A DNA stretch of 64,000 bases from Paramacrobiotus metropolitanus (taxonomy: Eukaryota; Tardigrada; Eutardigrada; Parachela; Macrobiotidae): contig NW_026570249.1 of assembly GCF_019649055.1 (NCBI RefSeq), positions 1 to 64,000 of the forward strand. Reading direction: 5' to 3'. Positions 26,501 to 43,985 of the stretch are shown one piece after another; the first letter of the stretch is position 1; the number at the start of each line of letters is the position of its first letter. Below the pieces are notes generated by a model. It saw only the letters and a list, made by a program, of their open reading frames with translations, made no database searches and had not been told where the DNA came from. The position numbers and the translations under genes are program-made.

Positions 26501-27940
26501 ACACAGTACGTAAACATCAGCTTGTGTTCTATTAAACTGTTCCCGGAGCAAGTAAAAATAAATCGAAGGAAATCACAATTTCGTTAATATTTCAGAAAAC
26601 AACCGGGCCACCAAGGCCACTACAAATCAAAAGAATAAATCCCTAAAAGCTCACCTGAAATATTTCCATGGCCTGTTGGCGAGAGATTTTCAGGTTCAGT
26701 CGGTCCATAAGTGTCATACATTCTTCGAAATTCAAAAGACCATCAGCAGATCGATCAGCCGCCACAAAGCTCTTTCGCAGCCACCTATTGTAAACGCAAA
26801 ACATAAGACAAAAACAACGATTGGTGAATGCCGGCTTTCTCCATAACAAGGCGCTTTTCTCTATGCACCGTCGATAAATCAATGTTGTACACACATTTCC
26901 AAGCGTTTTTCCCGTTCCACTTGTTGCTTTTCATCGATCAGACGGCGCATGACATTAATCCACTTATCGCAGACATCTTTATCCGGCGCAATGAGATCCA
27001 ATGCTTTACCGGAGGAAAGCACAATGGAGAAGCAGATGTCTTCCGGATATTTGCGGACAAAGCGTGCCGACTTTTCGCGCCGATTAAATCCATCGGTGGA
27101 ATAGCCAGCACGGACTTCCTTAACTTCGTCCAAATCCACTGTCGAAAATAGATACAAAATTGCCAGCACATATTCAAAACATTAGTAGAAAATTCAAAAT
27201 ATTTGAAATTATTAAGGCAAAATAAAAACAGATTGCATGATCCTATTTTGCAGCAAATCACGGCAAATTTTGCAATATCGGCACTTCAACACGACTTCCC
27301 AAATTAATACTGTACGATCAGAACCTGTAGTAAAGAGCATACATCAGAAGTAACAGAAAATTAAAGAAAATTTATCTGACTTAAAAGCAGCGAAAAGATG
27401 GTGAAGCCCATGGTCAGGGTTTGTGTTCGGTATCACTTTAAGATTTACACAGACAAACTGTATCGTATGTGCAGAATTTCTAGAGTAGATTCGCGCCATG
27501 CAACATGAATGTCAAGGCCGAAACACTTTGTACGTACCTTGGCGATACTCAGATCTGGAGAAGCAAATCCATTTCCGCAGTGGGCAATAGCACAAATATT
27601 CCTTTTTGTTGTCGATGCAGTAGGTACGACGGTAAGTCCGGTGCGAGCCCAGCTTCAGCAGTGTATGTCCATCTTGGATGTCATGCAGAGCTCTTGTGTC
27701 TGTCAATGGACCAATACTCGTTTCAATGACCACCCGCTTTCGCATGAACGATTACGACATAATACTGGACGTTGTAGGATAAACCTCTAACGTAGATGTG
27801 CAAATTGGAAAACTTTAGGCGCTAAAATTAGAATAAAGTCTGCTCTGGTCAGAAACAATCGTACAAACAGCATCCTCATGATCATCCTTCTGTGGCTTCG
27901 GCTGTTCCTTCTTACTGCCGGAACGTCCCAGCGACGGCAT
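23563..27940 (-). CDS. Phosphoinositide phospholipase C, delta-type (copy B)
   Basis: A gene of about 13 exons with the full delta order. PH domain (about 27710-27538 and 27147-26893, QDGHTLLKL), EF-hand loop D-R-S-A-D-G (26787-26655), further EF region (26410-26050), X domain ([14 protein letters not shown], then HNTYLL, then [10 protein letters not shown] and THGFTLTT, 25930-25390), an acidic X-Y linker (25195-24830), Y domain ([23 protein letters not shown]) and C2 ([23 protein letters not shown], to TGA at 23563). Both catalytic His are present (HNTYL and THG). The enzyme cleaves PIP2 to IP3 and diacylglycerol at the plasma membrane under calcium control. The start is ATG at 27940; the first donor is uncertain. 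Confidence 0.88.
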
Positions 27941-28380
27941 TGGAATACTTAAACGTTAACAGAGATAGTCAAAATCAATTACAAATGCTGTGCTAAATGG
28001 AGTACGAAAATTTTACACTTGAACCTTTAATTTTCGAAAAAATAGTTTACACTTTTCACTTCAGAAAAACGAGCAAATGTGTAAAGTGTAAAACTGGAAA
28101 ACAATCAAAACGTGTTGCATTTAAAATGTGGGCAAACATTTTTCTTGAATGTGCAATCACAATGCATACCATACCAGATACGGTAGTAAGTACTGGGCGC
28201 GGAGCCTTTGTGTGCCGTACATTCACCAGCCCAGCCCAGAGAAGTCTTCAGTTTCCCCAGTGACCAGAAATCATAAATGCACAGAAAGTTTCAAGAAACA
28301 AGAACAATTAATGTACTTACGTTTTAATAATCTTAATTTTGACTTATTTCGTGATTGTTATTGTTGTTTGTTTTCCACAG

Positions 28381-28775
28381 CGTCTCAGCTGAGGTGATTT
28401 ACAATAAGCAGATGGCGGAAGATCGGATCGCCTCTCTTCGTGCAAAGATCCAGGCTCGTGATCTGATAGGCATACAGGCCCTGGAAGCGGTACTTACTCT
28501 GACACACAAGATACCGAAGAGAGTAATAAGTATGCAAGAGACCTGTGATGGATATGCAGTTGTTGTCGTTTTTGCAGGCACGATCTGCAATTCGTAAGCG
28601 AATAGAAGAGAATGCCCAATCTCTGGTTAGGGCAAAAAGAATCGTACAACGGGCTAAAGAATTAAATCGGAAGCATGAAAAGGGGAGCCAAGATTTTCCC
28701 TGTAAAAGGAAACAACGTCGCAAGTCTCCAAAGGATAAAAGCGATGATGGCGCGGACGTTACGACTGCAAACTAA
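28381..28775 (+). CDS. 3' exons of a small basic coiled-coil protein, unidentified
   Basis: Exon about 28381..28489 follows a pyrimidine-rich acceptor (TTTTCCACAG) and ends GCG|GTACTT. Exon 28578..28775 follows TTTTTGCAG in the same phase and ends with TAA. The joined product is helical and charged (RIASLRAKIQARD.., RSAIRKRIEENAQSL), then a Lys/Arg-rich tail (KRKQRRKSPKDKS) resembling a nuclear localisation signal. The frame is open upstream of the first ATG (28412), so earlier exons may lie between 27.99 and 28.3 kb. I do not recognise the family. The retrotransposon sits about 350 bases downstream, probably in or just past the 3' UTR. Confidence 0.5.
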
Positions 28776-29121
28776 CGTGGTTCGTCCCAAAGGGCAGTAC
28801 CCATCTGGACTGGAGCCTTCCTAGTTCCTGAAATAGCGTATGTTACTCGTATTTGGTGTTTCCGCACTTTGGAGTTGGTTTACAGTAGTGTGTTCCTTTG
28901 CATCGTATTGTGTGTTTCCCTACCGTATTTCTCCCATATGTGCCGAGACATAATACCCTTTTTAGCAGTTTATACTTTACCTTGTCGCTCTTATCTTCGA
29001 TTATTAAATCTTCCGCGCGATGAATGTTGTCGTATCCAAGAAGTACTGCGACATGATGTGGGTCTCGTTTTAAGCTGAAAATAGTTTAGCTGCATAAGGC
29101 AGTCAACTGTTTTCGCTGTTA

Positions 29122-29125
29122 TTAT
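29122..29125. repeat. Target site duplication, left
   Basis: ATTA lies directly outside the TG of the left LTR and is repeated at 43604-43607. A 4-bp duplication is usual for Ty3/gypsy integrases. Confidence 0.75.
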
Positions 29126-29403
29126 GCTGTACAGAGAAACGACAACGGAAACAACATCTCCTCGAAATAATCGCTTTTATTTCAATGAAATAAATGCTAA
29201 TCAGCATCAAAACAAATCTCTAAAGGTGAGAAAAAGGGCATGAAACCCAGAAAAGCTAGGAAACGATGTTAACGGTTCCTAGGTTGGCACTCGAATGGCA
29301 AACACGTTCAAGCGTGTTTGGAAAACTGGCGAATGGTGAGCCGATCCAATGATGGTGAGGCGAACACGCCACTATCCTGTGCGCTACGCACAGCACTCTG
29401 ACA
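29126..29403 (-). repeat. 3' LTR of the retrotransposon
   Basis: About 278 bp, matching 43325-43603 with a handful of differences (for example A/G in CCCAG(A/G)AAAG and a 1-base length change). It begins TG and ends CA. An inverted repeat ACACGTTCAAGCGTGT lies inside. Confidence 0.92.
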
Positions 29404-29960
29404 TGCAACGGGACGGGATGCCGAGGCCCCTTGAGGCTCAAAACAGGAATGAGAAAAAAACAGGGAAATGCGTGTTAAATGCAACGCAATGAGCAGTTTT
29501 TATTAAAAAAAAATGTGCCAATTATTCCATCACAGTTAGTGAGAACACACGCTGCAAAATGCGGCGTAAAATTAATCAAAACGAGTTCTAAACTCGTAAC
29601 AAAATTCCGGTAAATTTAATCCGATTTAATCCCATTCCACACGTTAATCCGTGTTGTTTTGCAGGTTTATTCCGGAGCTTTTCCTCCAATCATACGCATT
29701 GTTGCGTCGATCCACGACATATGTGCAGCTTAGTGCATCTACGGCAATTTATTCATTCGATTTATGCAATTAATGCACTACGGCAATTCTGAAACTGATT
29801 TGTGCACTGATTTGTGCGTCTACGGCAATTCGTTTCTGTAATGATTGAAATAAATTCAATCTGGTGCACTCGTTGGGCAACTTACGGCGATTAAATATCA
29901 GTATATACATTGTATACATTGTACGCTCTTGCGATTTTTATTTTAGCATTTAATGCTTTT
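29404..29960 (-). other. Retrotransposon 3' non-coding region with repeated TACGGCAATT motif
   Basis: About 0.56 kb between the last ORF and the 3' LTR. TACGGC(A/G)ATT recurs at 29739, 29779, 29821 and 29883, with a shorter form at 29962, spaced about 40-80 bases. No clear polypurine tract abuts the LTR on the coding strand. Confidence 0.6.
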
Positions 29961-30713
29961 TTACGGCATTTGTACCTGTGGTTCCGCATTCAATACATTA
30001 AGAGCATCGCTCAATACGGTGGACGTAGCTCTAGCTTCGTCGCTATCTTCACACATGTCAGCATCCACCTCAGCTGCGGGGATAAGAAAATACAACGGCT
30101 CATCGTCGTTGTCAGGAATCGTGACAACACAAATGTCCAATTCCAGAAGAGTCTTATCCGGGTTATCGGCGGCTATCAATTCCCGCTGTTTTTCCCGCAA
30201 AGCTTGCCGGGACGGGAAGAGAAAATTATTCTCTATCGACGGCTTCTCGTCCGTCTCCATCGCAGCTTCTTGCTCCGTTGTCTCAGGAGTTTCCTGAATT
30301 GTCAGTAATTCTACTGACGCGGTTACTTCATTCTGCGGCGTTCCGCTTGTCGGTGCTGGTATATTTGCAGTCTCCACTGCCGGTACGGTGGTTACGGTAT
30401 CAGCTGTTGGTACAGTCTTTGCTGTACTATCCGATACAACTGGCACAGCGTTAGCTATCTTCGGCGTTTCTTCACTTCTTACAGTGTCGTTCGACACTAT
30501 CGGTTTCTTCAGTCCAGGCTGGACTGTTTTACTGGTTGACGGAGTGTCAGGGGAATTTGGAGCGACTTTGCGCTTTCCCTGGTTCTGACGTTCAGCAAAT
30601 CGCTTAATGAGATCATAGATCCCGTCATAATGTCCATTATGGATAGCTTCGGTTCCCATCGATTTGCATAACTTGCAGAAGATCTTTAAGGACCTTTGCC
30701 TGCTGTTCCTCAT
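29961..30713 (-). CDS. Retrotransposon accessory ORF7
   Basis: Up to 250 codons. It overlaps the end of ORF6 in another frame; the likely start is the ATG at 30659, about 20 bases before the ORF6 stop, giving about 232 residues. The N-terminal part is basic (a KRFAERQNQGKRK stretch). The middle is a Thr/Val/Pro-rich low-complexity linker (repeated VPAVET and VPTADT-type units). The C-terminal third is acidic with a compact hydrophobic segment (LLELDICVVTIPDND). No family recognised. Its overlap with ORF6 suggests coupled translation. No signal peptide or membrane segment. Confidence 0.6.
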   Translation of the reverse strand: MRNSRQRSLKIFCKLCKSMGTEAIHNGHYDGIYDLIKRFAERQNQGKRKVAPNSPDTPSTSKTVQPGLKKPIVSNDTVRSEETPKIANAVPVVSDSTAKTVPTADTVTTVPAVETANIPAPTSGTPQNEVTASVELLTIQETPETTEQEAAMETDEKPSIENNFLFPSRQALREKQRELIAADNPDKTLLELDICVVTIPDNDDEPLYFLIPAAEVDADMCEDSDEARATSTVLSDALNVLNAEPQVQMP

Positions 30714-31485
30714 TAAGAGGCTCCCCCATACGATTAACGTAACTCTTTAATCGGCGATTCTGCTCAGCCTGACGATATGTCCGGGCATAATGATGAGCGT
30801 GGCAATTGCCCATTAACGCGGAGAGGATAACCAGAATATACTTCTTTAATCCCCATCCGATAGGGATGGTGTCCCATGTGATTTTCATGGGAGCTATCTT
30901 ACGCTGCATAGCGCAAGCGGCACGGCAGAAAAACCAGAACTTTGCTGGGTCCGTGTCCGGTAATATAAACTGAAGGAGGAATTCTTCCGGCTCTTCAGTA
31001 AATAGAATTTTGAATTGGGAAATTAATTCCCAGTCGACGACGGTAATCTCAATTAATTTATCTTTCAGCTGGGAAATATCCAGCGCACTGCGTAAACCAT
31101 AACGGCGCGGCGTTTCATATCGCCTGATCTCCATCTGGCGGAACAGATCAATTTTATACATATTAATCGAATTTTTGATACGAATATCGTATCCAATTAT
31201 ACGCATCAAGTCCAGCGTATCCGTGATGGCCTTGCCAATTTCCGCTCGCTGATCATCGTTGACGGTGCCAAGTACTGACACAACACGATCAATATATTGA
31301 TCAAGATCTCGACGAATAACGTCGATATCACGACGGATATGCTGTGGATGCGTCTTACGCTCGGGCATCAATAATACAGATGCGTCCGGCTGGTATTTAA
31401 CCGGTTCACCGCGCGTTGCGCGGACATTCCAGTTCGGCGTTTTCTTCTTCTGAAATTTAACAGCTGCATTCAGTTTACCAGGCAT
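30637..31485 (-). CDS. Retrotransposon accessory ORF6
   Basis: 282 codons from an ATG 11 bases after the ORF5 stop, so termination-reinitiation is possible. The product is mostly helical and globular, with a basic N-terminus and a helix (RRDIDVIRRDLDQYIDRVV). A hydrophobic core follows (FWFFCRAACAMQRK, then WGLKKYILVILSALMG) with a His-rich turn. There is one buried-looking hydrophobic helix but no signal peptide, so an envelope role is not supported. No homolog recognised. Its length and low repeat content suggest a folded protein under selection. Confidence 0.65.
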   Translation of the reverse strand: MPGKLNAAVKFQKKKTPNWNVRATRGEPVKYQPDASVLLMPERKTHPQHIRRDIDVIRRDLDQYIDRVVSVLGTVNDDQRAEIGKAITDTLDLMRIIGYDIRIKNSINMYKIDLFRQMEIRRYETPRRYGLRSALDISQLKDKLIEITVVDWELISQFKILFTEEPEEFLLQFILPDTDPAKFWFFCRAACAMQRKIAPMKITWDTIPIGWGLKKYILVILSALMGNCHAHHYARTYRQAEQNRRLKSYVNRMGEPLNEEQQAKVLKDLLQVMQIDGNRSYP

Positions 31486-31496
31486 TATATCGCCTT

Positions 31497-32525
31497 CTAC
31501 AAACGAGTTATCTGGGTTTTCCCCACGTTCGGTGAGTTATAAATAATCTTCTGCCGAGTTTTACCACTAGCATTGCTAGTGTTGCTAGAATAACTAGCAC
31601 CCGAGTTCGGCTCAGATTCGAAGACTGGTTCACTTACAGGTACGGGCTGCACTCGCAGCAATTGTAAGGACGGTTGTTGGTTTACTGGTGGCTTCCTGGT
31701 CAGCGGCGGAAGATTCGCTAACAACGGATTGGTTTGCCGTTGTTGTGGCTCTTTCGGTGCTGTTCCGGCTGGCCATGGACACGGAGTTATCGTTTTTGTC
31801 TCCGGGTCATATTTATAACTTCCACTGGGGAGATTTTGCTGAAGGTGAGCAATATGCTCAGGTGGCAAAGCACCCGGCGGTACTTGCAATGCCATGTTCG
31901 TATATCGAACTGGCTGTTGCTGCTGCTGCTGATATCCCGCTGGTGGCAGACTTTGCTGCTGGTATGGCTGCGGCGAAAACATAACTGACGGCTGCCATTG
32001 GCCATATGCTGGTTGTTGAGACGGCATTTGCTGTCCGCCGACATTCGTCGGATAATTCTGCAAATTGTGAGAATTATCTCTGTACGAGGAGGGTTGATTA
32101 CCCGTATTAACCGGGAATATCTCAAAATTCCCACAAGTACTATTCACAGGAATAGTTACCTGATTCGGTGGTGCTGTGATGCATTGCATCAAATTAGCGG
32201 TATTCCGTCCGAAGTTCTCCGGGTGAGTCGCACACGACCATTCGTCGGCTTGGTCACTGATGAACTTAACGGCGCTCTTGTGAATGCCATTATAGTAATA
32301 TGGCGAGGCGCAGACAATCGTCCAATACTCCGGCAGCGTTATGGTGCGATACGCATCCAGGCTGCGCATGAGTACTTCGTCGAACAATCGGGAGACAACG
32401 ACTTGCGGATTATCCGATCGGTAGTTGGGTCCCAGCGTGCATTCCACGCATTTACGGTTATTTGTATTGTTTAAACAACGATTGCAGGAGCGCATTGGCG
32501 CACAGGCATACGGTAATTCCTCCAT
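31497..32525 (-). CDS. Retrotransposon accessory ORF5, Cys-rich head and Gln/Pro-rich tail
   Basis: 342 codons from an ATG (32523-32525) that lies two bases after an ideal 3' splice site (ATTATTTGCAG). The N-terminal 35 residues hold six cysteines in pairs (C-x5-C-x2-C and C-x2-C spacing), which could bind zinc. Residues about 45-110 look globular with aromatics. The rest is low-complexity, Gln/Pro/Tyr-rich (including a run of six Gln) and probably disordered. No family recognised. The splice acceptor suggests it is made from a spliced subgenomic mRNA, in the way retroviral accessory genes are. Confidence 0.65.
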   Translation of the reverse strand: MEELPYACAPMRSCNRCLNNTNNRKCVECTLGPNYRSDNPQVVVSRLFDEVLMRSLDAYRTITLPEYWTIVCASPYYYNGIHKSAVKFISDQADEWSCATHPENFGRNTANLMQCITAPPNQVTIPVNSTCGNFEIFPVNTGNQPSSYRDNSHNLQNYPTNVGGQQMPSQQPAYGQWQPSVMFSPQPYQQQSLPPAGYQQQQQQPVRYTNMALQVPPGALPPEHIAHLQQNLPSGSYKYDPETKTITPCPWPAGTAPKEPQQRQTNPLLANLPPLTRKPPVNQQPSLQLLRVQPVPVSEPVFESEPNSGASYSSNTSNASGKTRQKIIYNSPNVGKTQITRL

Positions 32526-32640
32526 TTCTGCAAATAATTTAAAATAATTAAATTAAGCAGTATTTACGGCGTTTTAATATTATTGCGTAGTATACGCATC
32601 TAACCACCTCGGAGATACTTTTATTTAATTGTCTTCTTCA
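32526..32640 (-). promoter_or_regulatory. AT-rich spacer with probable 3' splice site before ORF5
   Basis: 115 non-coding bases, the only sizeable gap among the accessory ORFs. On the minus strand it ends in a T-rich tract and ATTTGCAG two bases before the ORF5 ATG. Confidence 0.5.
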
Positions 32641-32925
32641 CTAGCGTGGTCTAATACCACGGATAATACCATCCCCGCGATGCGGGTCATTCAGACCGAT
32701 TATTCTCGGGTCGCTAATCAAGCGACTTATCGCCAGACTTACGGCGTCATCTACTTGGTTAGCTATGGCTGGGCATACAGTCGCAATATACTGTATGATT
32801 TCGTCAGGCGATGATCCGAAGGGATCACCAATTTCTGCAATCGTTTTTACAACGATTTCATCCCACTCGGGAACTTTATCGAACTGCACTTTTTGCAGAA
32901 AAGATAAACCCTTACGACCGAAATA
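32641..32925 (-). CDS. Retrotransposon accessory ORF4, winged-helix-like, in frame with ORF3
   Basis: 94 codons open from the TAA that ends ORF3 (32926-32928), in the same frame and with no ATG. The core (WDEIVVKTIAEI..GSSPDEIIQYI..AISRLISD) has the helix-turn-helix spacing of the linker-histone globular domain and resembles the central part of ORF3. A short basic tail follows. It would be produced only by stop-codon readthrough or as an extension lost by mutation. Assignment to the H1/H5-like fold is by pattern, not by search. Confidence 0.5.
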   Translation of the reverse strand, partial: YFGRKGLSFLQKVQFDKVPEWDEIVVKTIAEIGDPFGSSPDEIIQYIATVCPAIANQVDDAVSLAISRLISDPRIIGLNDPHRGDGIIRGIRPR

Positions 32926-33651
32926 TTAAGACGGCGAAGTCTCGCCATTATAGCGGCGGGTTATTTGGGAATCTTCATACATCGTTCGAATCATCGACTG
33001 CACAGCGTACGGTTGATAAGTACCGAAATACTCGCTTATCCGCTGTGCTGTGGGATTTTCCCCTCTCTGTTCAATTTTATATATGGCGATTGCCAAATCA
33101 TTACGCGATGGCCGTGCCAACAAATTTTTCTGTTCATCCTGTGCTATGGGCCTTCGCCCGAATGGAACGCGCTTTGCGGGTGAATACGGTACTTCTTCCA
33201 CATGTTGACCGGTTAGTTCGGCAATCCTTTTGCGGTTAGTTTCCACTAGGGCATATCGCCCACTATTCCCGGCCAGGGCCGCATCTACGATTATTCCCGT
33301 GGCGATTGCCTCATTAACTGCGGTAGTGACATCTGAGTAACGCTGCTCAGGATTGACTGAGTCTAATGGCATTGTTAGGTACATATACCGAACAATCTCA
33401 TCAATGGTCGATCCACGAACATTATGGATGTCCCTAATGGCAATTGCCACTGCTTCTACCATTTTCTGCATGTTGTTGACTCTCATGTCGACATATCGAC
33501 TTTTACGATTTGCGGTTATCGCATATTTCATCGTTGGTGACCAATTTTCATAAACTTCCACCAACGTACCGCGCTCTGACGCTATTTTTACGATGGAAGC
33601 GTATTCCTCGGTATCAATAGGCCGGGGGGCCAAAATCTGTCTATATCTCTG
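32926..33651 (-). CDS. Retrotransposon accessory ORF3, linker-histone (H15)-like domains
   Basis: About 241 codons, open from the TAG that ends ORF2 (33652-33654), in the same frame. There is no ATG near the start; the first usable ones are well inside. Residues about 55-130 read like an H1/H5 globular domain: MVEAVAIAIRDI, then GSTIDEIVRYMYL, then AVNEAIATG.. and a closing GNSGRYALVE, the place where H1 has a Gly-Ser-Gly-x-(Y/F)-x-L strand. A second segment near the C-terminus (NDLAIAIYKIEQRGENPTAQRISEYF) has a similar helical pattern. Such domains bind DNA, so a role in compacting or targeting element DNA is possible. This is inference. Confidence 0.55.
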   Translation of the reverse strand, partial: QRYRQILAPRPIDTEEYASIVKIASERGTLVEVYENWSPTMKYAITANRKSRYVDMRVNNMQKMVEAVAIAIRDIHNVRGSTIDEIVRYMYLTMPLDSVNPEQRYSDVTTAVNEAIATGIIVDAALAGNSGRYALVETNRKRIAELTGQHVEEVPYSPAKRVPFGRRPIAQDEQKNLLARPSRNDLAIAIYKIEQRGENPTAQRISEYFGTYQPYAVQSMIRTMYEDSQITRRYNGETSPS

Positions 33652-34542
33652 CTAAAGATAGGCCGGTGCCGCCATCTTATCCCTCTTCCGGATACTATTT
33701 ATGATATCCAATGTTATCGTCGTAACATGGGCTATCTGGTCACTAGACACCGGTTTCAGTGGTTGTGACGGCCCAGCCTTTGCTGGTGGTTCTGGTTTTG
33801 GTTCCGGAATTTCCGGGGAATTGTCTCTACCATTAGACTCATCACTCCCTTTTTGAGCCGTTGTACTACAACGCTCGTCAATCATGAGCCGCGGCTGTTT
33901 GTCCTCATCCGAGGATGATGAGGGCTGACGTCTCAGTCTTTCCCGAACCTGAACGACACGCCTTTGCGTCTCTTCCCTTTCTTCTTCTAATTTACGCTTT
34001 TTATCCTCTTCGCTAGGCGAAGTCGTGCTTTGCACACGATACGGGTTTGTCCTACTGGATATTGCTGCGCTAGCAGCGGGCGACGGTGTTCGCGTTCCTC
34101 CCAACTGAGGAATTATATAATCTAATTCCTTCTTTATTTGTACCAGTGTCCCGGTGCGTGACTCAGCTGGGATTTTCCCTTGCGAATTCGGAGTTTGCTG
34201 CCCAGAACTTAGCTGGCGTGAGATCGGTGCTTGCACGACTCCTAACGGAGTTGGAAACCGAATTACTGGCTGCTTTGAGCCATGCTCTTTCCAGAACTCC
34301 GGGGGCGGTTGCACTTGCAACTGTGAACGGATCTGAGTCAACACCTGCGGCGTGTTATACACATGCTGCGGTATCGTAACTACTCGAAGTTCTCTCCCAT
34401 TCGGAGCGTCTGTTTTCGTCGGGGCAAAAGGGCCTTCCATTATGAAGGATTGTCCCCAACGTTGCCTATCTCTGGCCTCTTGCCGCTCATGGTCGGCGAT
34501 CAGCTTTGCTAATCGCTCGTCGGCGTCTGCCGGTGGTTTCGG
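33652..34542 (-). CDS. Retrotransposon accessory ORF2, disordered charged protein
   Basis: 297 codons counted from the ORF1 stop (34543-34545), or 262 from the first ATG at 34440. The frame is the same as ORF1 and only one TAA lies between them. The upstream 34 codons are open and charged. Seen features: Gln/Pro-rich first half, a KKRKLEEEREETQRR coiled-coil-like basic/acidic stretch, a poly-Ser acidic patch (SSSSDED), a Pro/Glu-rich region and a short C-terminal helix. No family recognised. It is probably an intrinsically disordered linker in a larger readthrough product. Confidence 0.5.
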   Translation of the reverse strand, partial: PKPPADADERLAKLIADHERQEARDRQRWGQSFIMEGPFAPTKTDAPNGRELRVVTIPQHVYNTPQVLTQIRSQLQVQPPPEFWKEHGSKQPVIRFPTPLGVVQAPISRQLSSGQQTPNSQGKIPAESRTGTLVQIKKELDYIIPQLGGTRTPSPAASAAISSRTNPYRVQSTTSPSEEDKKRKLEEEREETQRRVVQVRERLRRQPSSSSDEDKQPRLMIDERCSTTAQKGSDESNGRDNSPEIPEPKPEPPAKAGPSQPLKPVSSDQIAHVTTITLDIINSIRKRDKMAAPAYL

Positions 34543-35073
34543 TTATTTACTCCGTTTAGGCTTCGCCCTCAACGCTTTCTCTACTCCTTCCTTTGAAGGT
34601 GATTTAATCGGTTTTTTCACAATCGACTCGTAAGGCACTTCTTCGACTTCTTTTGAGGTCCCTGCCGCATCACTTTGTGCTTTTGCGCGCGCTACGATGG
34701 CCTTTGCCAACCTTTCCGCAGGCGGAGTAATATGCAGTTGATCAACTGCAGCTATTTCCTCTGGTTGGGCAGCAGTCGCTGCCAATGAGTGTCTGTACGA
34801 TGCCAAGTCGCGTTCCCGATTACTTCGTAAAATTAATTCATATTCGGCATATGATGCCACTATTACTGGATCAGTCTGCGTGCTACGTGACATAGTCACT
34901 GGAATTACTTCTGGTGCCACATTGGGCAAATTACCGGCGTTTTGAACATTCTGGACATTTGGGGCAGCAATTCGCTGCATCGGACGGTAAGCTTGATTTC
35001 CCGCTACGGGTGGGGCGAAGAATCGAGGATTACCTCTGCCAACCGGTCGGTTCGGTCGCTGATCGCGGTCCAT
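34543..35073 (-). CDS. Retrotransposon accessory ORF1, Arg/Pro-rich head
   Basis: 176 codons from ATG at 35071-35073. A strong 3' splice site (T-rich tract, CCATTGCAG) lies 11 bases upstream on the coding strand, shortly after the pol ORF stop. The head is rich in Arg, Pro and Asn (RDQRPNRPVGRGNPR) with repeated NVQN/NLPNV units. The middle is helical and charged, and the tail is Lys-rich. It ends with TAA followed directly by an open frame into ORF2. It is probably the first product of a spliced downstream mRNA. No family recognised. Confidence 0.6.
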   Translation of the reverse strand: MDRDQRPNRPVGRGNPRFFAPPVAGNQAYRPMQRIAAPNVQNVQNAGNLPNVAPEVIPVTMSRSTQTDPVIVASYAEYELILRSNRERDLASYRHSLAATAAQPEEIAAVDQLHITPPAERLAKAIVARAKAQSDAAGTSKEVEEVPYESIVKKPIKSPSKEGVEKALRAKPKRSK

Positions 35074-35194
35074 TGCGGAAATATCTGCAATGGAAAAAAA
35101 TACACAATTTAATTGTGGATTTTTGTACGGTATTTTGATTAAGCTTCGCTTTCCTATCTTATTTCAATTAAAACGATCGTTTTAATTTATCATT
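35074..35194 (-). promoter_or_regulatory. Spacer after pol with probable 3' splice site for ORF1
   Basis: About 120 non-coding bases. Reading on the minus strand, an AT-rich stretch is followed by a T-rich tract and CCATTGCAG|ATATTT, then the ORF1 ATG. Confidence 0.5.
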
Positions 35195-38100
35195 TTATTT
35201 CTTACGCACTTTGTACGGTAGTTCAATAACTACACGGTTAACCCTAATGTATCCATTAGCGCTTTTGCGCAGTTTCAACATGAATCGCTTTTTTGGTACT
35301 GATTTATTAGCGCTATTGCGCTGAGTATTACTATCACCATCGTCCACGGTTTCCCATTCCTCTGTATCGTTTACAGGGGAATCATTCGCAGGATTATCTG
35401 CGGAGGTACGGACCACATCGTTATGGGGAAGTTCGCTCAGTCCGTGACTTTCTAACAAATCTTTAATTAGTAAAGTCTCGCTCTTGCGGTCTTCCTCTGT
35501 AGCTTTGTACGGTTTAAGTCTTTCACAGTTTACAATTCTAATTTCTTCCGATTTATCGGAATTAATTCTCTTTATTTCCACAGCATTTGTGTATGGAAAT
35601 CCCACGATTTCCCACGGTTCTATTTCGAATTTACGACGGAAAGACTCCGTTTCGCCTTTCTTTTTCTCTATTTTGAGAATAACTCGGTCTCCTATGTTAT
35701 ATGTATCATCAGATCGCCGTTTGTCGAAACGTTCGGCATTCTTTTCGAATTCTGTATTTATATGGATTTCGGCGATTTCACGAGCCCGTTTCAAATTATA
35801 CTGGAGATCTTCCAGGTAGTCCCGAATTGTCGGGTGATCTACCGGTAAATTTGTTTTTGTTTCTGTATCTGCAGGAATAACCTGCTCTCTTCCGTATAAC
35901 ATAAAGTAAGGTGACATATTTGTCGTTTTATTTGCTACCCGGTTTTTTCCAGCAATAACGAACGGTAGGACTTTGTCCCAATTTCGCTCGCGGCCATCAC
36001 TGGCGTACATCGCGAGTGAATCGGCAATTGTTTGCATTTGTCGTTCGACAAGTCCGCGCCCGATCGGGTGATACGCAGCACCAAAATGGTGCTGTATTCT
36101 TAAACGTTTATTTATTGCTTCCAATAAATGGTTATGGAAGTGTGTTCCTCTGTCTGTATTCAATATCTGTGGTGTCCCGTAAGGCAAGAACACGTCATAG
36201 ATTAAGAAATTAGCGACAGTTTCCGCTTTTGCATCTGGTATCGGTTTTGCAATTACGAATTTCGTGAGTTCGTCTATCGCTACGGCGATATAGGTATTTC
36301 CCCGTGTTGTTTTGGGCAATGGCCCTTTTAAATCTACTTGCATTCTAAACCACGGCTCGCCGATAGCGAGCTGCTGCAGTTTGCCGGGTGGCGCTTTGCG
36401 CAGTGTTTTGCGATGCTGGCATGCAAAACAATGATCTACGTACTTGATAATCTGAGAGACCATATTCTCCCAGAAATACCGCAAGGCGATCGCCTGATAA
36501 GTTTTGGCGCGGCCTAGATGACCGCTAGCTGGTGCATCATGCATTGCATGCATGATGTCGACTCTCATGTGCTTTGGCACGACAAAACGGCGGTTAATTC
36601 GGCCGTCTTTCTCTGAAATCTTATATAATACACCATTCCATAATTCATAGCCGGAATAACCGGGTCGTTTTAATAAGTGTACGCTTTCTACGCGTCCTTC
36701 TAGCGCATGAATTATGCGCTCCACATTGGGATCTTTCTCCTGTTCGGTACGATAAAATTTGAAGTTGTCTTCAACTTCCTCATGATCGGCTCCATCCTTA
36801 ATCGTTACTACACGAATAGTCGGAGTACTGAATTTAGAATCTTTAAACTCATCCCAGTCATCGTCTGGGCATTCTATAGCTTCTCCTACCGGGTGTCTAC
36901 TCAACGCGTCAGCGTTATCACACTGTTTTCCCGGTCTATACAGTATAGTCATTTTATGGCTGCTTAGCTGGAGTGCCCAGCGCGTTAAACGGCCATTTAA
37001 CCCCTCTTTGCGGGAAACCGATCTCAATAAATTAGTTAAAGCCTGGTGGTCAGTCTGTACTGAGAAATGCGAGTACTCAATAAAGTGTCGAAATTTTCGA
37101 CATGCAAAGACTACTGCCATGCACTCTAGTTCCGTAATCGGATACTTTTTCTCAGCGTCTGTGAGCAATTTGCTCGCATAAATGATCGGGTGTCCATCTT
37201 GGTGCAATATCGCACCAATTCCTATTGTGGATGCATCGCATTCAATTACGGTCGGTTTACTTGGATCAAATTTTGCCAGTACTGGTGCATTAATTAATGC
37301 TGATTTCAAATCAGCAAATTCACTGTCGTGATCTATCGACCAATTCGCTTTCACATCAATTTCTCCTTTTAATAAGCCGTATAGACGGCGTGTTCTACCG
37401 GCAAAATCCTTAACGAATTTCCGGTAATAATTACACAGTCCTTGGAATGACCTCAGATCTTTTTCTGTCTCTGGCTTTGGGTATTTCTCAATAGCTGCTA
37501 TTTTATCAGGATCTGTTTTTATTCCGTCCTTGGACACAATATGTCCAAGGAAATGTAGCTCCGTTTCGCCAATATGGCACTTACTCGGTTTCAATGTGAA
37601 ACCAGCCTTTAAAAGGCACTCACACATTAAACGTATTTTACGTTTAAGATCTGCGAAGTCTTTAGCGGCAGCAATAATATCGTCCAAATAAGCGAAAATA
37701 TTTTCGCAATGGACGTCCGACAGTGTCCTGTTCATGGCTTCCTGAAACGTTGCAGGGCCATTACAGACGCCGAACGGCATTCTTAAAAATTCATAGAGTC
37801 CGTCCTGCGTAATAAACGCAGTTTTTTCTATCGAATCTTCGTGCATTTGCACCTGCCAGAATCCGGCATTACAATCGAAGCCACAATAGTATTTATTGTC
37901 AGCTACTGCTTGCAGTAACTCATCCGGATTAGGAAGAGGATAATTGTTCTTTTTCGTAGCGTCATTTAATTTTATATAGTTCACGCAAAATCGCGTGCCG
38001 ATAGTTCCATCGGGATTTTTCTTACTAGCTAATACTACGGGAAAACACCAGGGAGAATTCGATTTTCGAATTATCTCTTTTTCCAGCATTTCGTTTACAT

Positions 38101-38242
38101 GCTCTTGAATGATCTCGCGGCCTCGCCACGAGGTTCTATGCGGTTTACATTTAATCGGTGCAATATCACCGGTATCAATTTGGTGCTTAACTATTTGGAC
38201 ATCGCCAAACGGGCGGGTTTTTGTTGCAAATCGGATATTCAA
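35195..38242 (-). CDS. pol: Retrotransposon Pol: reverse transcriptase, RNase H, integrase
   Basis: 1015 codons. RT (residues about 20-240) shows LPNPDELL, FRMPFG-type LRMPFGVCNGPATFQ and the catalytic YLDDI. RNase H (about 300-450) has ECDAS, the ELECMA glutamate, TDHQAL and NADALSRHP. Integrase (about 560-900) begins with an HHCC zinc domain (HDAPASGHLG .. CFACQH) and has the DDE triad in QVDLKG, NTDRGTHF and GLVERQ. A C-terminal Lys-rich domain follows. The order RT-RH-IN is that of Ty3/gypsy. All catalytic motifs that I can see are intact. The start has no ATG: the frame overlaps the protease ORF by 56 bases and would need a frameshift or a 1-base repair to join. Confidence 0.93.
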   Translation of the reverse strand: MNIRFATKTRPFGDVQIVKHQIDTGDIAPIKCKPHRTSWRGREIIQEHVNEMLEKEIIRKSNSPWCFPVVLASKKNPDGTIGTRFCVNYIKLNDATKKNNYPLPNPDELLQAVADNKYYCGFDCNAGFWQVQMHEDSIEKTAFITQDGLYEFLRMPFGVCNGPATFQEAMNRTLSDVHCENIFAYLDDIIAAAKDFADLKRKIRLMCECLLKAGFTLKPSKCHIGETELHFLGHIVSKDGIKTDPDKIAAIEKYPKPETEKDLRSFQGLCNYYRKFVKDFAGRTRRLYGLLKGEIDVKANWSIDHDSEFADLKSALINAPVLAKFDPSKPTVIECDASTIGIGAILHQDGHPIIYASKLLTDAEKKYPITELECMAVVFACRKFRHFIEYSHFSVQTDHQALTNLLRSVSRKEGLNGRLTRWALQLSSHKMTILYRPGKQCDNADALSRHPVGEAIECPDDDWDEFKDSKFSTPTIRVVTIKDGADHEEVEDNFKFYRTEQEKDPNVERIIHALEGRVESVHLLKRPGYSGYELWNGVLYKISEKDGRINRRFVVPKHMRVDIMHAMHDAPASGHLGRAKTYQAIALRYFWENMVSQIIKYVDHCFACQHRKTLRKAPPGKLQQLAIGEPWFRMQVDLKGPLPKTTRGNTYIAVAIDELTKFVIAKPIPDAKAETVANFLIYDVFLPYGTPQILNTDRGTHFHNHLLEAINKRLRIQHHFGAAYHPIGRGLVERQMQTIADSLAMYASDGRERNWDKVLPFVIAGKNRVANKTTNMSPYFMLYGREQVIPADTETKTNLPVDHPTIRDYLEDLQYNLKRAREIAEIHINTEFEKNAERFDKRRSDDTYNIGDRVILKIEKKKGETESFRRKFEIEPWEIVGFPYTNAVEIKRINSDKSEEIRIVNCERLKPYKATEEDRKSETLLIKDLLESHGLSELPHNDVVRTSADNPANDSPVNDTEEWETVDDGDSNTQRNSANKSVPKKRFMLKLRKSANGYIRVNRVVIELPYKVRKK

Positions 38243-40150
38243 GGAATATTTCTTTAATTTCTCGGATTTCCTGTGCGGTTAATTCAGGATTTATTTTTAA
38301 TTCGTCAACTGCTTTTATCACAGTCTCCTGTTCTTCTGGTGTCATTTCAGCCAACATTGTGGCATTAACCTGGATATTTATATCAGGGATTTCTTCGTAC
38401 GGTTCTAAATAGCCAATAAATTGGCCTTTCTTAATTGACTGCCGCTGATGTTGAAAGTTAACGAATACCATATCAAATTTTTTATTTTGTGGTTTAACCA
38501 CTCCCTCCATCGGTTTTATCCGCCGTTCCATATACAGGTGCGGACTAGGAAGGAATAAAAATTTATCAGTATCGAACTGCTCATCTGCATCGAATTGGAC
38601 ATTTACTGTCGCCCAATTAGTACCCGGATTAATTAGTAGTTTTTCGCCGGCGAAGACTTTAATAGGCTTAGCGCGTGTGCCGCGGTAAGTGGGGTTAATG
38701 CTCGGAGACTCGGAAAATTCCCAAGTCGGAGATTCATTAGTGATCACGGCAGAATCAGTGGGCCCTACCAATTCTGCATTTACGATAATTAAATTGTTAG
38801 AATCCGGTACTACTTCGATGTTAGCTTGATTAATTAAATTATTGTTAGTTTCGTTACTAGCGGCAATATTGAGGGAATTCCTCACTACGATAGGCGGATC
38901 ATCCTTTAAAAATTCAACTACCTGCGCCATCGGCGCGAAACTGACTGATCGATTATGGTTCGCTACGGTTTTAACATCCGTTTCATTTACGTAATTGTTG
39001 AGCGGTTTACACTCGTTCAGCTGGTACGGCAATACTGGCAATTTACGCCGTTCTAATTGCGCCAATATGCGCAAAGGTGTCCGTAGTACATACGGTAGCG
39101 GTATTTTAAAATATTTAAAAATTTCGTTTAGGTGTCTCTGTTTCTCCTCCAAAGCGGCGTACTCCGCTCTGTACTGCTTAGCCAAATTACGAACAATTTC
39201 TTCTGCTTTTGCAGAATCGATACCGGGCACCGGTGTTTCATCGTCCAGGAATAAATACATGACGTTAGTACCGTCTTCTTTAGCTTTAATTAGGTCTTGT
39301 ATTTCTTTTATGAGTACTCTGTACTCCCCCCCCAAAGACGTCGAGACGTCGCCTTTGTGGCTAACCGGGCTTTTATCTGTTTTTTTAATACCGGCTTCTG
39401 ATTGCCGACTGGTTTCGCTACAATCCCTACTGTGGCATTTGCCACGGGTATCGGGGAAGACTTCATTCCCTTCTGGTACGGCACTTTCCTCTGCTTGTAG
39501 CTCCTCTACGGACTTGTCAATTTCTCCCGTTGCCACGGGTATCGGGAAGACTTCTTCCACTACGGTGTTTGTCGTTTGAATAACCGGCGACGCCGGTTCG
39601 TTCATTATTAACGGTCCCGGTTTCTTATCGGGCTGATATTCTAAATATCGCAATTTGTTGTGCCGGACGGCATAAAATTTATCCAGCAGGAAATCCTGCC
39701 CCAACAGTACTTTTACTTCATCGGTCGTTGGCTTAATATAAGCCGAATGCAAAGATTCGAAATCTTTAATTTTAATTGCTATTCTACAGTAATGTGTTTC
39801 GAGGAATCCACGGACTCCTCCGATACCGCGAATATGTAGCGGTTTAATTAATGGTATTCTTGCAGCTTTAATTTCGTTTGCAAATTCACTAGAAATTAGT
39901 GAAGTCTCCGCACCGGTGTCAATCATCACTGGTACTTCGCAATAATTTATTATTGCTTTCAGCATTAATGGTGCGGTTCTCTTAGGTTCGTCGTTGTCAG
40001 TTAAAGTTGTAAGGTTAATATCAGCATCGCTGATATCCGATAATTCATCGGCATCCATTTCGACTACTCGTAATCCATTGATTACAGTTTCTTCGGTTTT
40101 ATCCGGCGGTTTGGGTGGAATCGGGTCGGTAAAGCCGGAATTTACCGCCC
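38187..40150 (-). CDS. pro: Retrotransposon aspartic protease region
   Basis: Open from about 40150, with the first ATG at 40058 (623 codons). The retropepsin signature DTGAETSLIS sits near residue 50 after the ATG, and a conserved IRGIGG flap-like motif follows. A long acidic, probably disordered segment comes next, and then a second region that leads into the RT N-terminus (EIREIKEIFLEYP). The homology to the RT lead-in continues across the ORF end into the Pol frame. The break at 38187-38242 therefore looks like a one-base indel rather than a natural protein end. It cleaves the Gag-Pol polyprotein. Confidence 0.85.
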
Positions 40151-40981
40151 CTACTCGTTTTCCTGATCGGCCAAACCGGAAAACGGATTATTATCCGGTA
40201 ACGGTGATCCTGGCGTCGGGCGTATCCGATCTTCTACTGTGCCAGTACTCTGGCGGGAATTACTCCTCTGCCTGGCTGGCGAATTAGGCTCACTTCCTGA
40301 CTGACTGCCGTTACGGCGCTGATAGAAATCGGCGGCATATCGCCGATTTCCGGTTTCTGGATCGTGATAGGCTAGGTATGTCGGATTTTCACATCGCGGT
40401 TTATCGCGGAACTGACAGTCTCGGAAGTAGTGCCCGCACAAATCACAATGCTGGCAGTACTTCACCACTCTATTGCCACGCAGAGTTTTCTGCAAGGCCG
40501 GCGACCGATCAGTCGCTTCCTGTATTTTACTGGCATTGTTAGCCCACTGTTCCTTGCGCGAAGGCGCACGATTATCCCCACCGCTATTGCGACTATCATA
40601 ACTTTCAGCTTTGCTAATATTACTCTGACTGCTAGCGGCACGACTGCCGTAGTTAGATTTTCCGCTATTTTTACTACTTGGCCGCGGCGGGCTGGCTGCC
40701 GCTGCCGCATAAGTCTTTGGTTGTACTTGTACAGTTCGTACAGTTACTGCCTCGCTATCGCGGTCCTGTTTGCGTCGGACGTTGCCAACAGGAATTACAT
40801 ATTTCTCAGGATTGTTTGACGACAAATAGCGGATTATTTCCAGAAATTGTTCTGGTGTTAGCGGTCTTATTATCTCTATTTTATCGTGCAACTTCTCGTG
40901 GGTTTTCAACCCTTTTACGAGGAAGTTTACGACTTGTTCCGGTGATCCGTTAAATCCCGCGCGATCGCGCAATGTCATCAT
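40151..40981 (-). CDS. gag: Retrotransposon Gag C-terminal part with CCHC zinc knuckle
   Basis: 276 codons in a different frame from the upstream gag ORF, overlapping it by 32 bases. The N-terminal part continues the capsid region. The middle is Ser/Asn-rich and basic. A single nucleocapsid knuckle of the C-x2-C-x4-H-x4-C type is seen as CQHCDLCGHYFRDC, followed by more cysteines. The tail is Ser/Arg-rich. It packages element RNA. The overlap suggests a one-base indel, or a +1 frameshift between the two gag parts. Confidence 0.85.
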   Translation of the reverse strand: MMTLRDRAGFNGSPEQVVNFLVKGLKTHEKLHDKIEIIRPLTPEQFLEIIRYLSSNNPEKYVIPVGNVRRKQDRDSEAVTVRTVQVQPKTYAAAAASPPRPSSKNSGKSNYGSRAASSQSNISKAESYDSRNSGGDNRAPSRKEQWANNASKIQEATDRSPALQKTLRGNRVVKYCQHCDLCGHYFRDCQFRDKPRCENPTYLAYHDPETGNRRYAADFYQRRNGSQSGSEPNSPARQRSNSRQSTGTVEDRIRPTPGSPLPDNNPFSGLADQENE

Positions 40982-42626
40982 TGACTGATAATGTTTCCAG
41001 AGTCTCTTGACCTGGCTTATACATACGGTTTGCTAATTCAGCGAGCGCATTTACTGCTCTTTTCGAGTCGCCAAAACGGGCGATTAGTTGTTTCTTCCAC
41101 TCTTTATAAGTTGTCGGCGGCGTCGCCGACGTTATCAACCCATTATACCAAATAATGGCATCGTCTTTAAGGCAATACGCCAATTCAGTAATCTTCCTTT
41201 CGTCAGTTACCCAACGATTTGCGGTTGCCGCGTGCTCAAATTTAATAATAAAACTGTCGATGTCCTCTTTACTACCATTGTAGTTGGGACGCGGTACGGG
41301 CTGTCGCATCACTTCAGCCAAATCCGATTTTCTCACGGGACTTACGGTCCTGCTTTGTCCGATGCCCGCTCGCTGAATTTCTTCCCGCAAAATACTGCGG
41401 ATAAACTGCTGCTTGTCAGCACTCGGCATTTCCCGGGAACCACTCTCGTTCACTGCCGAGGGTGTATGCTGTACACGGGATGATTCTGCTTCAGTGTTAG
41501 CGGCATAAGCCCTACTAAGCGGCCGTTCGCCGTATTCCACTGCCTCTGGATTCATCTGCCGGTCATACAGTACTCGATAATCCCTCGCAAGGGAATTGAA
41601 TTTCCCAATAAGGGACTTATGCTCCGTTTGGTTTTCGTACAGCATAGACTGCACATTCTTCAGGTCTGTTACGTGATTAAAATTAGCGATTTTCAGCCGC
41701 TGATTTTCTTGCCATACTTGATCAAGCATGGTGTCTTCTTCAGCTAATTGCTGGTTCATCTCGGAGTTTCTAGCACGAGCTTCATCTACTTTTGCCTTCA
41801 GTTCGGCGATTGCCGCATCCTTTTCGCCTATTACGGCCCTCAGGCCTAACACAATCTTTTCCATATTTTTAAAGGAATTGTGGGCGTGCTGGTACTGATT
41901 TTTATGGTGTTGTACTTCGTCTTCAGCTACTTCTAGCTTTCTTTGCAAATCTTTAATCGCTACCTGATTAGCCGAAATTGTTTCGGTTGCCTGTTTTAAT
42001 TCCACAACGGTGGAACCTGTTGCCGGCTTAGCCGCGGAGGTCAACAATTCATTTAAATTAGCAGTGTATGATTGCGTTTTACGCAATGTACTCGGTACTA
42101 CCGTCACAGGTTCTTCTTCTTCCGTTGTTACGGATTTATTTAGTTCGCTTTCGCTTACATGGGTGAATGACCCCGTTGTGGCAGTGGATTCCGTAGTACT
42201 TTCAGACCGTTCCGGCGCAGGCGCGCGTTCCTCTTCCCGATTATCGGGATTAACTTGTCTAACTTTGTCTGGCGTCAACGGCCTGAAAAACAACTGATCA
42301 GGCGGCTCCATCACGGGCGTATCAAGGAGATTATCTCCTTGATCCATTCCGGTCACTTTACGCGGTTTACGGGTTTTATCTTGGAGGACTTTGTGGGTAA
42401 TTTCCACACCTGCCTCCTTCAGCTGGTTTGCCTTACTACGAGTAACTTTATCCGGTTGTGGAGCTCCGCTTGTACCAGCCTTTGCTGGATCGTCAGTTAT
42501 CCCTTTCAGTACTTTACTGGCTGACTTTAGGACGTCTTCTACGCCCTGTTTCAACCTGTCAATGGCCTGGGCTGTAAATAGCCTGCCCCACGCAATTCTA
42601 TTAGGCTGCTCTGCAGCTACACACAA
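40950..42626 (-). CDS. gag: Retrotransposon Gag N-terminal part (matrix/capsid-like)
   Basis: About 558 codons in an open frame without an early ATG; the first in-frame ATG is at 42347. A frame upstream of 42626 extends to a TGA and is hydrophobic. A coiled coil spans roughly residues 215-330 (heptad-rich, QAIKDLQRKLEVAEDEV). The C-terminal part has the retrotransposon gag capsid pattern (WVTDERKITELAYCLKDDA, then WKKQLIARFG). It forms the particle. The missing start implies either translation from a spliced leader region, a non-ATG start, or damage to this copy. Confidence 0.85.
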   Translation of the reverse strand: MCVAAEQPNRIAWGRLFTAQAIDRLKQGVEDVLKSASKVLKGITDDPAKAGTSGAPQPDKVTRSKANQLKEAGVEITHKVLQDKTRKPRKVTGMDQGDNLLDTPVMEPPDQLFFRPLTPDKVRQVNPDNREEERAPAPERSESTTESTATTGSFTHVSESELNKSVTTEEEEPVTVVPSTLRKTQSYTANLNELLTSAAKPATGSTVVELKQATETISANQVAIKDLQRKLEVAEDEVQHHKNQYQHAHNSFKNMEKIVLGLRAVIGEKDAAIAELKAKVDEARARNSEMNQQLAEEDTMLDQVWQENQRLKIANFNHVTDLKNVQSMLYENQTEHKSLIGKFNSLARDYRVLYDRQMNPEAVEYGERPLSRAYAANTEAESSRVQHTPSAVNESGSREMPSADKQQFIRSILREEIQRAGIGQSRTVSPVRKSDLAEVMRQPVPRPNYNGSKEDIDSFIIKFEHAATANRWVTDERKITELAYCLKDDAIIWYNGLITSATPPTTYKEWKKQLIARFGDSKRAVNALAELANRMYKPGQETLETLSVNDDIARSRGI

Positions 42627-43324
42627 AAGAACGGCTATCGCTGATAGGAATCAGCTAGTTCTTTGACATGACTTTCAGACAGAATCGGGGAAATCCGCTC
42701 CACTGAGCCATCGCTCCGTTACAAATAACCTTTGCAAATAGTAATTTGTGTGCTCCGTTAATAATCAAATCAAACAATATTCTCGAAATAGAACGATCGT
42801 TCTCCTACAGAAGGATGTCATCCAAATACACCACAACGATATCTGTTACAATAATCCGTACAACTCTGCCATCTATTACGATAGCCAAAACTTTCTTCAT
42901 TTTGGACTGTACAATATGCAGTTTAGTCGAGAGCGATCGTTCTCTTCCTTCCCCGTTTTCATAAAACGTTAGTTTCTATAAGACACTATTTTCTGGACAG
43001 AAATAATCCGTCCTTTAAGGAATTTATCCTAGTAAATTCAAAATTATAGGCTTAATGCCTACCACTTTGATACGTTGTCCGCGGTTCTTCTCCTTGCTGG
43101 CGGCCGCGTGCCTTCCGAACCAGCGACGCTCCTTGCTTCTGAAGTAGGGTTCTTCTTCTGCTGTTGCTGGGCTATCGCTGGTAAGCCAAGGTCTCCACCA
43201 AAGAGAGGAAACTTCCGTGTTACGGCGTGTTCAATGTGACGCCGTTATCGAGTGCAGAATGTCAACAAAACTACGGGAATGACAGGGATCTTAAGGCATC
43301 TCCACCATCTCGGAGAAGCGTCTA
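42627..43324 (-). other. Retrotransposon 5' leader
   Basis: About 0.7 kb between the 5' LTR and gag. The motif CGATCGTTCTC occurs twice (near 42792 and 42936, plus-strand reading). I could not recognise a tRNA primer-binding site next to the LTR: no TGG-starting stretch abuts it. Confidence 0.5.
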
Positions 43325-43603
43325 CGCTGTACAGAGAAACGACAACGGAAACAACATCTCCTCGAAATAATCGCTTTTATTTCAATGAAATAAATGCTAA
43401 TCAGCATCAAAACAAATCTCTAAAGGTGAGAAAAAGGGCATGAAACCCAGGAAAGCTAGGAAACGATGTTAACGGTTCCTAGGTTGGCACTCGAATGGCA
43501 AACACGTTCAAGCGTGTTTGGAAAACTGGCGAATGGTGAGCCGATCCAATGATGGTGAGGCGAACACGCCACTATCCTGTGCGCTACGCACAGCACTCTG
43601 ACA
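43325..43603 (-). repeat. 5' LTR of the retrotransposon
   Basis: About 279 bp; pair of 29126-29403. In the element's sense it reads TGTCAGAG...CTGTACAGC(A/G), so the terminal A is changed in this copy. It should carry the promoter and polyadenylation site. Confidence 0.92.
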
Positions 43604-43607
43604 ATTA
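43604..43607. repeat. Target site duplication, right
   Basis: ATTA directly outside the CA end of the right LTR, matching 29122-29125. Confidence 0.75.
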
Positions 43608-43985
43608 GGTACTTAACTTACCTCATACCTGTGACTTGTAAGTGATCCTAACGTACGTACTCTGATGATTTTATAGTTTTAATACTTACACTTTTTGTAT
43701 ATCTACAGACTAATATATACCACACAAGGACGTGAATACATTTAAAGCATTTATAAATCTTTAAAACTTAAAAAAGATAAGAACAAGCTGCAAAACAGCA
43801 CCGATAAAAATCTAAGATTCAATTTTGATCGACACGGGGTTTGCATCACTGACAAGCAGGAAAAGCTGCCAAATGAAAGCCCGGGCAAAGGCACCGCAAG
43901 AAAGGCAACCGGAAATTCGTTTCATGCTCCTCTTAAGCAGTAAAATATCATAATGCTCGATAAAAATAATGTATATATTCGCGGA
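43608..43985. other. Intergenic, no gene seen
   Basis: AT-rich DNA between the retrotransposon and the 3' end of PLC copy C, probably including the latter's 3' UTR. Confidence 0.4.

Follow-up and report, generated by a model that had tools for sequence, protein, structure and literature searches.

Two conserved genes downstream of pol in an oversized Ty3/gypsy-type retrotransposon of the tardigrade Paramacrobiotus metropolitanus

The first 64,000 nucleotides of contig NW_026570249.1 of the tardigrade Paramacrobiotus metropolitanus (assembly GCF_019649055.1), referred to here as the window, harbour a Ty3/gypsy-type retrotransposon of 14.48 kb on the minus strand (29125-43603). Gag, protease and reverse transcriptase-RNase H-integrase come first in its coding sequence, followed by about 5.2 kb of additional coding sequence between the pol stop at 35195 and the end of the last open reading frame (ORF) at 29961. 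The original prediction had described this block as seven substantial ORFs, each a separate gene; they are fragments of two genes, here termed ORF3 and ORF4, which in the window copy are interrupted by three stops within one frame and by frame changes, respectively, and are open in other copies.

The element and the two genes of its 3′ block

The main features of the window copy, from its 5′ to its 3′ end, are the following.

43604..43607, target-site duplication ATTA, right side
43325..43603, minus strand, 5′ long terminal repeat (LTR), 279 bp
40950..42650, minus strand, gag, first open piece, with a coiled-coil-like region and probably the beginning of a Ty3-type capsid (sub-threshold in Pfam)
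40151..41032, minus strand, gag, second open piece in a different frame, with a CCHC zinc knuckle (by eye) and probably the remaining capsid
38187..40187, minus strand, pol, first piece, with aspartic protease and linker
35195..38278, minus strand, pol, second piece, with reverse transcriptase, RNase H and integrase (H2C2, D-D-35-E)
32641..35073, minus strand, ORF3, one gene with three in-frame stops in the window copy and three winged-helix domains in its C-terminal half
29961..32525, minus strand, ORF4, one gene split over frames in the window copy, with an N-terminal Cys cluster, a conserved core and a basic motif
29125..29403, minus strand, 3′ LTR, 279 bp
29121..29124, target-site duplication ATTA, left side

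The LTR pair, the ATTA duplication and the length of about 14.5 kb stand as originally described, apart from a start at 29125, one base away, and the assignment to an oversized Ty3/gypsy-type element is borne out by structure, domain order and length, since both the protease-reverse transcriptase-RNase H-integrase order and LTRs with a short target duplication are present. Two mismatches separate the two LTRs, one internal and one at the final base. The gag and pol genes are distributed across different frames, be it through damage or through programmed frameshifting; the first gag piece matches Ty3_capsid with 16.8 bits, under the Pfam cut-off of 29.1, and the second has no match in Pfam.

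In ORF3, the pieces 35163-34543, 34542-33652, 33651-32926 and 32925-32641 share one frame and are interrupted only by TAA, TAG and TAA, while the ORF4 pieces 32525-31497, 31485-30637 and 30713-29961 belong to a single gene interrupted by frame changes. Elsewhere in the genome ORF3 is intact at about 820 aa (822 aa in locus L050, 824 aa in L051) and two further loci, whose beginnings are cut off, keep frames of 841 and 839 aa; in a fifth copy, L054, a stop codon interrupts the gene close to its beginning. In seven loci ORF4 is a single open frame of about 850 aa (822-859 aa), the one in L015 being without its initial residues. Numerous other genome matches to either gene are fragments or contain stops. 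Seven separate genes are ruled out by the four pieces in one frame and the open reading frames in other copies, and the tight packing once seen as the sign of a cassette arose from taking fragments of broken genes for genes. The single 115-base spacer is present (32640-32526). As for the roughly 5 kb after integrase, its size and the placing of its longest ORFs on the coding strand hold, but it is not exclusively coding-strand, with opposite-strand ORFs of up to 161 aa (measured stop to stop).

Both ORF3 and ORF4 are broken in the window copy, which carries several disruptions despite little LTR divergence; it may have been defective before it moved, or part of the disruptions may be assembly errors. 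An uncharacterised NCBI protein, P0011 (LOC129588425), corresponds to the 3′ piece of ORF4 (window 30713-29970).

Copies, selection and conservation

An LTR search of the 169.8-Mb genome, in which the best 40 of 56 candidates were scored so that copy counts are lower bounds, gave 34 matches that could be paired on the same contig and strand at no more than 20 kb, yielding 17 copies with a median span of 14.5 kb and leaving six matches unpaired. Both genes occur in 13 of these 17 copies, ORF3 only in one, ORF4 only in two and neither in one, and the search for other copies thus speaks against a one-off capture. LTR divergence is 0-0.6% within six copies (four of them compared over part of the 3′ LTR only) and 8-21% between copies (15 pairs), low within and high between, from which it follows that several old sublineages have recently moved. 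In one copy, C195, leader-like sequence lies beyond the 3′ LTR, perhaps in a tandem arrangement.

The comparison of Ka/Ks between copies that had been suggested at the outset was carried out by script as a Nei-Gojobori codon comparison, and the median ratio of nonsynonymous to synonymous divergence (dN/dS) is low, at 0.089 for ORF3 (6 sequences, 15 pairs) and 0.125 for ORF4 (8 sequences, 28 pairs), with every pair at or below 0.19, all rough values. Per 100-codon bin, the ratio is 0.02-0.10 in the winged-helix part of ORF3 and the ORF4 core, 0.06 at the ORF4 start and 0.04 in one bin of the N-terminal half of ORF3, reaching its maximum of 0.35 in the ORF4 tail.

Conservation extends beyond the family of the window element. 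The ORF4 piece 30637-31485 has at least 75 genome matches (from the best 138 of 234 candidates), with identity down to 23%, and among seven divergent loci the order POL-ORF3-ORF4 is found in four: L063, L064, L066 and L068, with POL identities of 67%, 62%, 48% and 52%, respectively. L067 has protease, POL and ORF4 matches and no ORF3 match; L065 and L069 have an ORF4 match only. Two of these loci carry repeats: in L066 (5218-6945) the ORF4 core is triplicated, with copies 714 nt apart in one 1059-aa frame and 99-100% identity reported over 300 nt, and in L065 (2970-3792) a 75-nt repeat array lies immediately before ORF4, with a related unit of 65 nt at 817.

The ORF3-ORF4 block is a selected gene set and not a one-off capture; the earlier view that it is neither junk nor a nested insertion is upheld by the copies, the dN/dS and the conserved order, with the correction that the genes number two. 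A 5-kb block is long enough to suggest a second element or virus nested in a normal Ty3/gypsy element, but the order is identical in other copies and families, and no further repeat pair of at least 40 nt exists within 28000-45000, making such nesting improbable in the extreme. Hardly more probable is captured host cargo that does nothing for the element: the winged helices of ORF3 do resemble domains of cellular chromatin proteins, against which stand the low dN/dS of both genes and their retention across diverged families. As neutral cargo, the block is refuted by the low dN/dS.

A P. metropolitanus protein record matches one ORF3 at 100% over 94% of its length. Protein searches gave no relatives beyond this species among the roughly 8000 candidates scored in each, a weak negative, and scans of viral_contigs gave no relative.

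Predicted winged-helix domains of ORF3 and the ORF4 protein

Pfam Linker_histone scores above its cut-off in five of ten ORF3 pieces from seven loci, with 24.6-25.6 bits in four copies of the window-element family and 37.7 bits in L063; the L064 piece falls below the cut-off, SAMD1_WH matches one L066 piece at a sub-threshold level, and the other three pieces give no match. Three domains were excised from ORF3, each aligned across families. The first gives Linker_histone in five of five members at E of 0.5 or less, above the cut-off in L063 (25.1 bits), and a weak PDB match to histone H1.0 (E 0.7). For the middle domain, the top PDB match is KAT6A (7y43, E 0.0046), with SAMD1 (6lui, Atherin) at E 0.28, and SAMD1_WH is found in two of seven members, at best with 17.6 bits, below the cut-off. 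The third has KAT6B (8e4v) as its top PDB match at E 5.5e-5, and Linker_histone in four of seven members (best E 0.00081). The first and third domains are similar to each other (hhalign 96.5%), whereas the middle one is unlike the first.

The C-terminal half of ORF3 thus looks like a row of three putative winged helices, one linker-histone-like, one KAT6-WH1/SAMD1-like (marginally) and one KAT6-WH2/linker-histone-like. According to PMC9908889, the source of the deposited structure 8E4V, WH1 of KAT6 recognises unmethylated CpG and WH2 docks at the nucleosome dyad in the manner of H1/H5; as WH1 is represented there by a model, 8E4V would be WH2. The apparent order of a SAMD1-like and then an H1-like winged helix in ORF3 would be that of the N-terminal WH1-WH2 of KAT6A/KAT6B in the same source. 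Compared with KAT6, SAMD1 and histone H1, ORF3 has an additional H1-like winged helix in front, and Pfam scans of the ORF3 and ORF4 proteins gave no MYST acetyltransferase domain. As to the features of a linker histone, the winged-helix H15 domain is present, and a strongly basic protein with a basic tail is not. The element and its flanks show no CpG depletion (1.27, 1.08 and 1.14), so that a CpG preference alone would not single out few sites in the host.

ORF4 begins with a Cys cluster, CxxCxxN, in eight loci (L011, L035 and L064-L069), mostly followed by RxC and less regular in L069. Its core has eight invariant residues in alignment A1 and no trustworthy match in Pfam, NCBIfam or PDB; judged by sequence, it is a protein family without recognised relatives. 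The idea that the core is a second gag (compared with the first gag piece) or a relative of ORF3 was rejected for lack of similarity. The basic motif, KRK, KKR or KKRK, occurs in four of six ORF4 proteins scanned. Profile and structure comparisons of the ORFs, as originally recommended, therefore succeeded in part, giving winged-helix matches in ORF3 and no usable match for ORF4, with weak structure models for both.

The position after pol and acceptor-like sites of the kind seen before env genes could point to a diverged envelope protein in ORF3 or ORF4, which would make the element a tardigrade retrovirus, and one ORF4 stretch reaches a borderline hydropathy of 1.65. This reading is nevertheless very unlikely, given that the 19-residue hydropathy maximum in the window-element family is 1.36 for ORF3 and that same 1.65 for ORF4, with no clear membrane segment; that a value of 1.75 in one relative belongs to an Ala/Val-rich tail; that no signal-like N terminus is seen by eye; and that the ORF3 domains are of DNA-binding type. 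The signal peptide and transmembrane fusion protein of an errantivirus-like Env are both missing by these measures (hydropathy, and the signal by eye).

Splice signals, proposed roles and neighbourhood

Four splice-like sites accompany the two genes in the window copy.

35085..35100, minus strand, acceptor-like site before ORF3, a pyrimidine tract and AG
35028..35036, minus strand, donor-like site GAG/GTAATC at ORF3 codon 13, use indicated by NCBI protein model P0004
34929..34937, minus strand, second donor-like site CCG/GTAATT at ORF3 codon 46, use indicated by models P0012 and P0006
32528..32540, minus strand, acceptor-like site attatttgcag before ORF4

An AG after a pyrimidine-rich stretch precedes ORF3 in all nine sequences inspected by eye (the window and eight loci). 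In the window-element family, four of five members, all but L057, carry the AG/GTAAT donor, in phase 1, at ORF3 codon 13; its position is codon 12 in L063 and codon 16 in L064, and none was seen in L066 or L068. In model P0004, ORF4 follows the first 13 codons of ORF3, and in P0012 the first 46. These conserved sites and models suggest that putative spliced mRNAs express ORF3 and ORF4.

The explanation that we favour, by a little over even confidence, is that a lineage of env-less Ty3/gypsy-type elements, here represented by a broken copy, encodes a chromatin-binding ORF3 protein and a nuclear or RNA-handling ORF4 protein, probably from spliced subgenomic mRNAs. The lineage would be long-lived and recently mobile, without a recognisable env. 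Gag and Pol would be made from full-length RNA and ORF3 and ORF4 from spliced RNAs, the ORF4 message being the start of ORF3 joined to ORF4. ORF3 would bind host chromatin in the service of integration or expression, either tethering the nucleic acid or integration complex of the element to nucleosomal DNA or keeping the integrated copy transcribed, and ORF4 could be its nuclear partner or an RNA-handling protein. More specifically, and with somewhat less than even confidence, the two genes may form a nuclear cassette whose KAT6-like winged-helix tandem reads nucleosomes and linker DNA to choose chromatin for integration or to resist silencing, ORF4 being a new family with a message start shared with ORF3.

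Several observations weigh against this explanation. No convincing conserved splice donor is found in the 5′ leader, and the support for splicing consists of NCBI protein models, which are gene predictions, and splice-like sites. An ORF3 match is missing in three of the seven divergent loci, and dS of up to 1.5 makes the dN/dS values rough. The ORF3 pieces of L068 are among those without a Pfam match, and for Linker_histone the window piece, which covers the first two domains, scores no more than 13.3 bits. Neither KAT6A nor SAMD1 is more than a marginal match, bacterial sigma factors ranking between the two at E 0.05; the middle domain weakly matches Phage_int_M in three of seven members; and the profile of the whole ORF3 C-terminal part matches archaeal MJ0754 (E 0.0026) in a stretch that precedes the winged helices. 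The ORF3 structure model has a mean pLDDT (predicted local distance difference test) of 55.7, that of ORF4 is unusable at 34.5, and Foldseek with the ORF3 model gave no match at E of 0.001 or less, its rows including LexA and DtxR (probability 0.77 and 0.87, 47 columns, E above 3). A Linker_histone search of the whole genome, with 61 candidates scored, had no copy of ORF3 among its listed matches at E of 0.001 or less; its one match at that level, with 104.9 bits, is taken as the host histone H1. The net charge of ORF3, +3 and -7, is without the positive charge of a linker histone.

A possible but doubtful alternative is that ORF4, or ORF3 with ORF4, resembles CERV of the Caenorhabditis elegans Ty3/gypsy element Cer1, that is, a nuclear protein made from a spliced mRNA that would export unspliced genomic RNA, with chromatin binding secondary. 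Since the genomic RNA retains the splice-like sites, its export would meet the same obstacle as that of Cer1 according to the accessible part of PMC10309623, and both the basic motifs and the zinc-finger-like Cys cluster of ORF4 would suit such a role. On the other side, no RNA-binding domain is recognised in ORF4, and H1/KAT6-type winged helices are DNA-binding (PMC9908889). As is proposed for the tardigrade element, Cer1 has a large non-env protein after pol, a spliced mRNA and splice signals within genomic RNA; unlike it, Cer1 makes one protein, with exons 1-3 in the gag frame and no winged helix described in that part of PMC10309623, whereas the tardigrade element has two proteins and ORF4 models that begin with ORF3 codons.

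Oversized Ty3 elements with extra ORFs are already known, and the original statement that the slot after integrase otherwise holds at most one env-like gene was overstated, as extra non-env ORFs occur in elements covered by the consulted portions of PMC6431247 and PMC5408684. The former describes Ogre of plants, with one or two extra ORFs, and the giant gypsy Burro elements of planarians, which share the large size and extra coding capacity; Burro differs in having other domains, mostly within one huge polyprotein, and env-like homology, and the size of Ogre comes largely from long LTRs, as opposed to the 279-bp LTRs and separate extra genes found here. The LTR elements of bdelloid rotifers have a non-env ORF3 downstream of pol and spliced messages, although their products are GDSL or DEDDy enzymes (PMC5408684) and those of the tardigrade element would be a DNA-binding-type protein and one without recognised relatives. 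Further reports of extra ORFs in LTR elements appear to include PMC7264820 and PMC11963269. Among the literature matches listed (titles and abstract starts, with few subscription journals), none describes winged-helix, linker-histone, H15 or SAMD1 domains in retrotransposons, or this tardigrade pair.

As far as is known, chromatin targeting by LTR retroelements proceeds mainly via integrase, and in chromoviruses a chromodomain at the integrase end is a chromatin-binding module carried by the retroelement; the putative tardigrade module, by comparison, lies in a separate protein and would have another fold. If the proposed role is correct, a separate element-encoded winged-helix protein of the H1/KAT6 type would be another route to host chromatin, and one that is directly testable. 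ORF4, for its part, adds a protein family of its own.

Element genes have entered the gene models of the P. metropolitanus genome, in one case as a fusion with a phospholipase C gene: the phospholipase C eta-2-like NCBI model P0006 joins codons 1-46 of the window ORF3 (35073-34936) to phospholipase C exons (27703-23566), and the insertion may thereby be the putative source of an alternative first exon for its neighbour. According to P0006 matches, three phospholipase C-like paralogues lie in a row (14841-17106, 23566-27703 and 44037-47821), the element being located between the second and third. Within the element, CTCCGAG[AG]TGGT occurs at 43315, just inside the 5′ LTR, and at 32614, just before ORF4, and is absent elsewhere on the coding strand; GCCGTA occurs 13 times on the coding strand and three times on the other, as against 4 and 9 in the flanks (49.5 kb). 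The window also contains a U3 small nucleolar RNA gene (61891-62118, 97.1 bits) and several ORFs resembling G protein-coupled receptors by eye (3105-11293 and 55169-56185).

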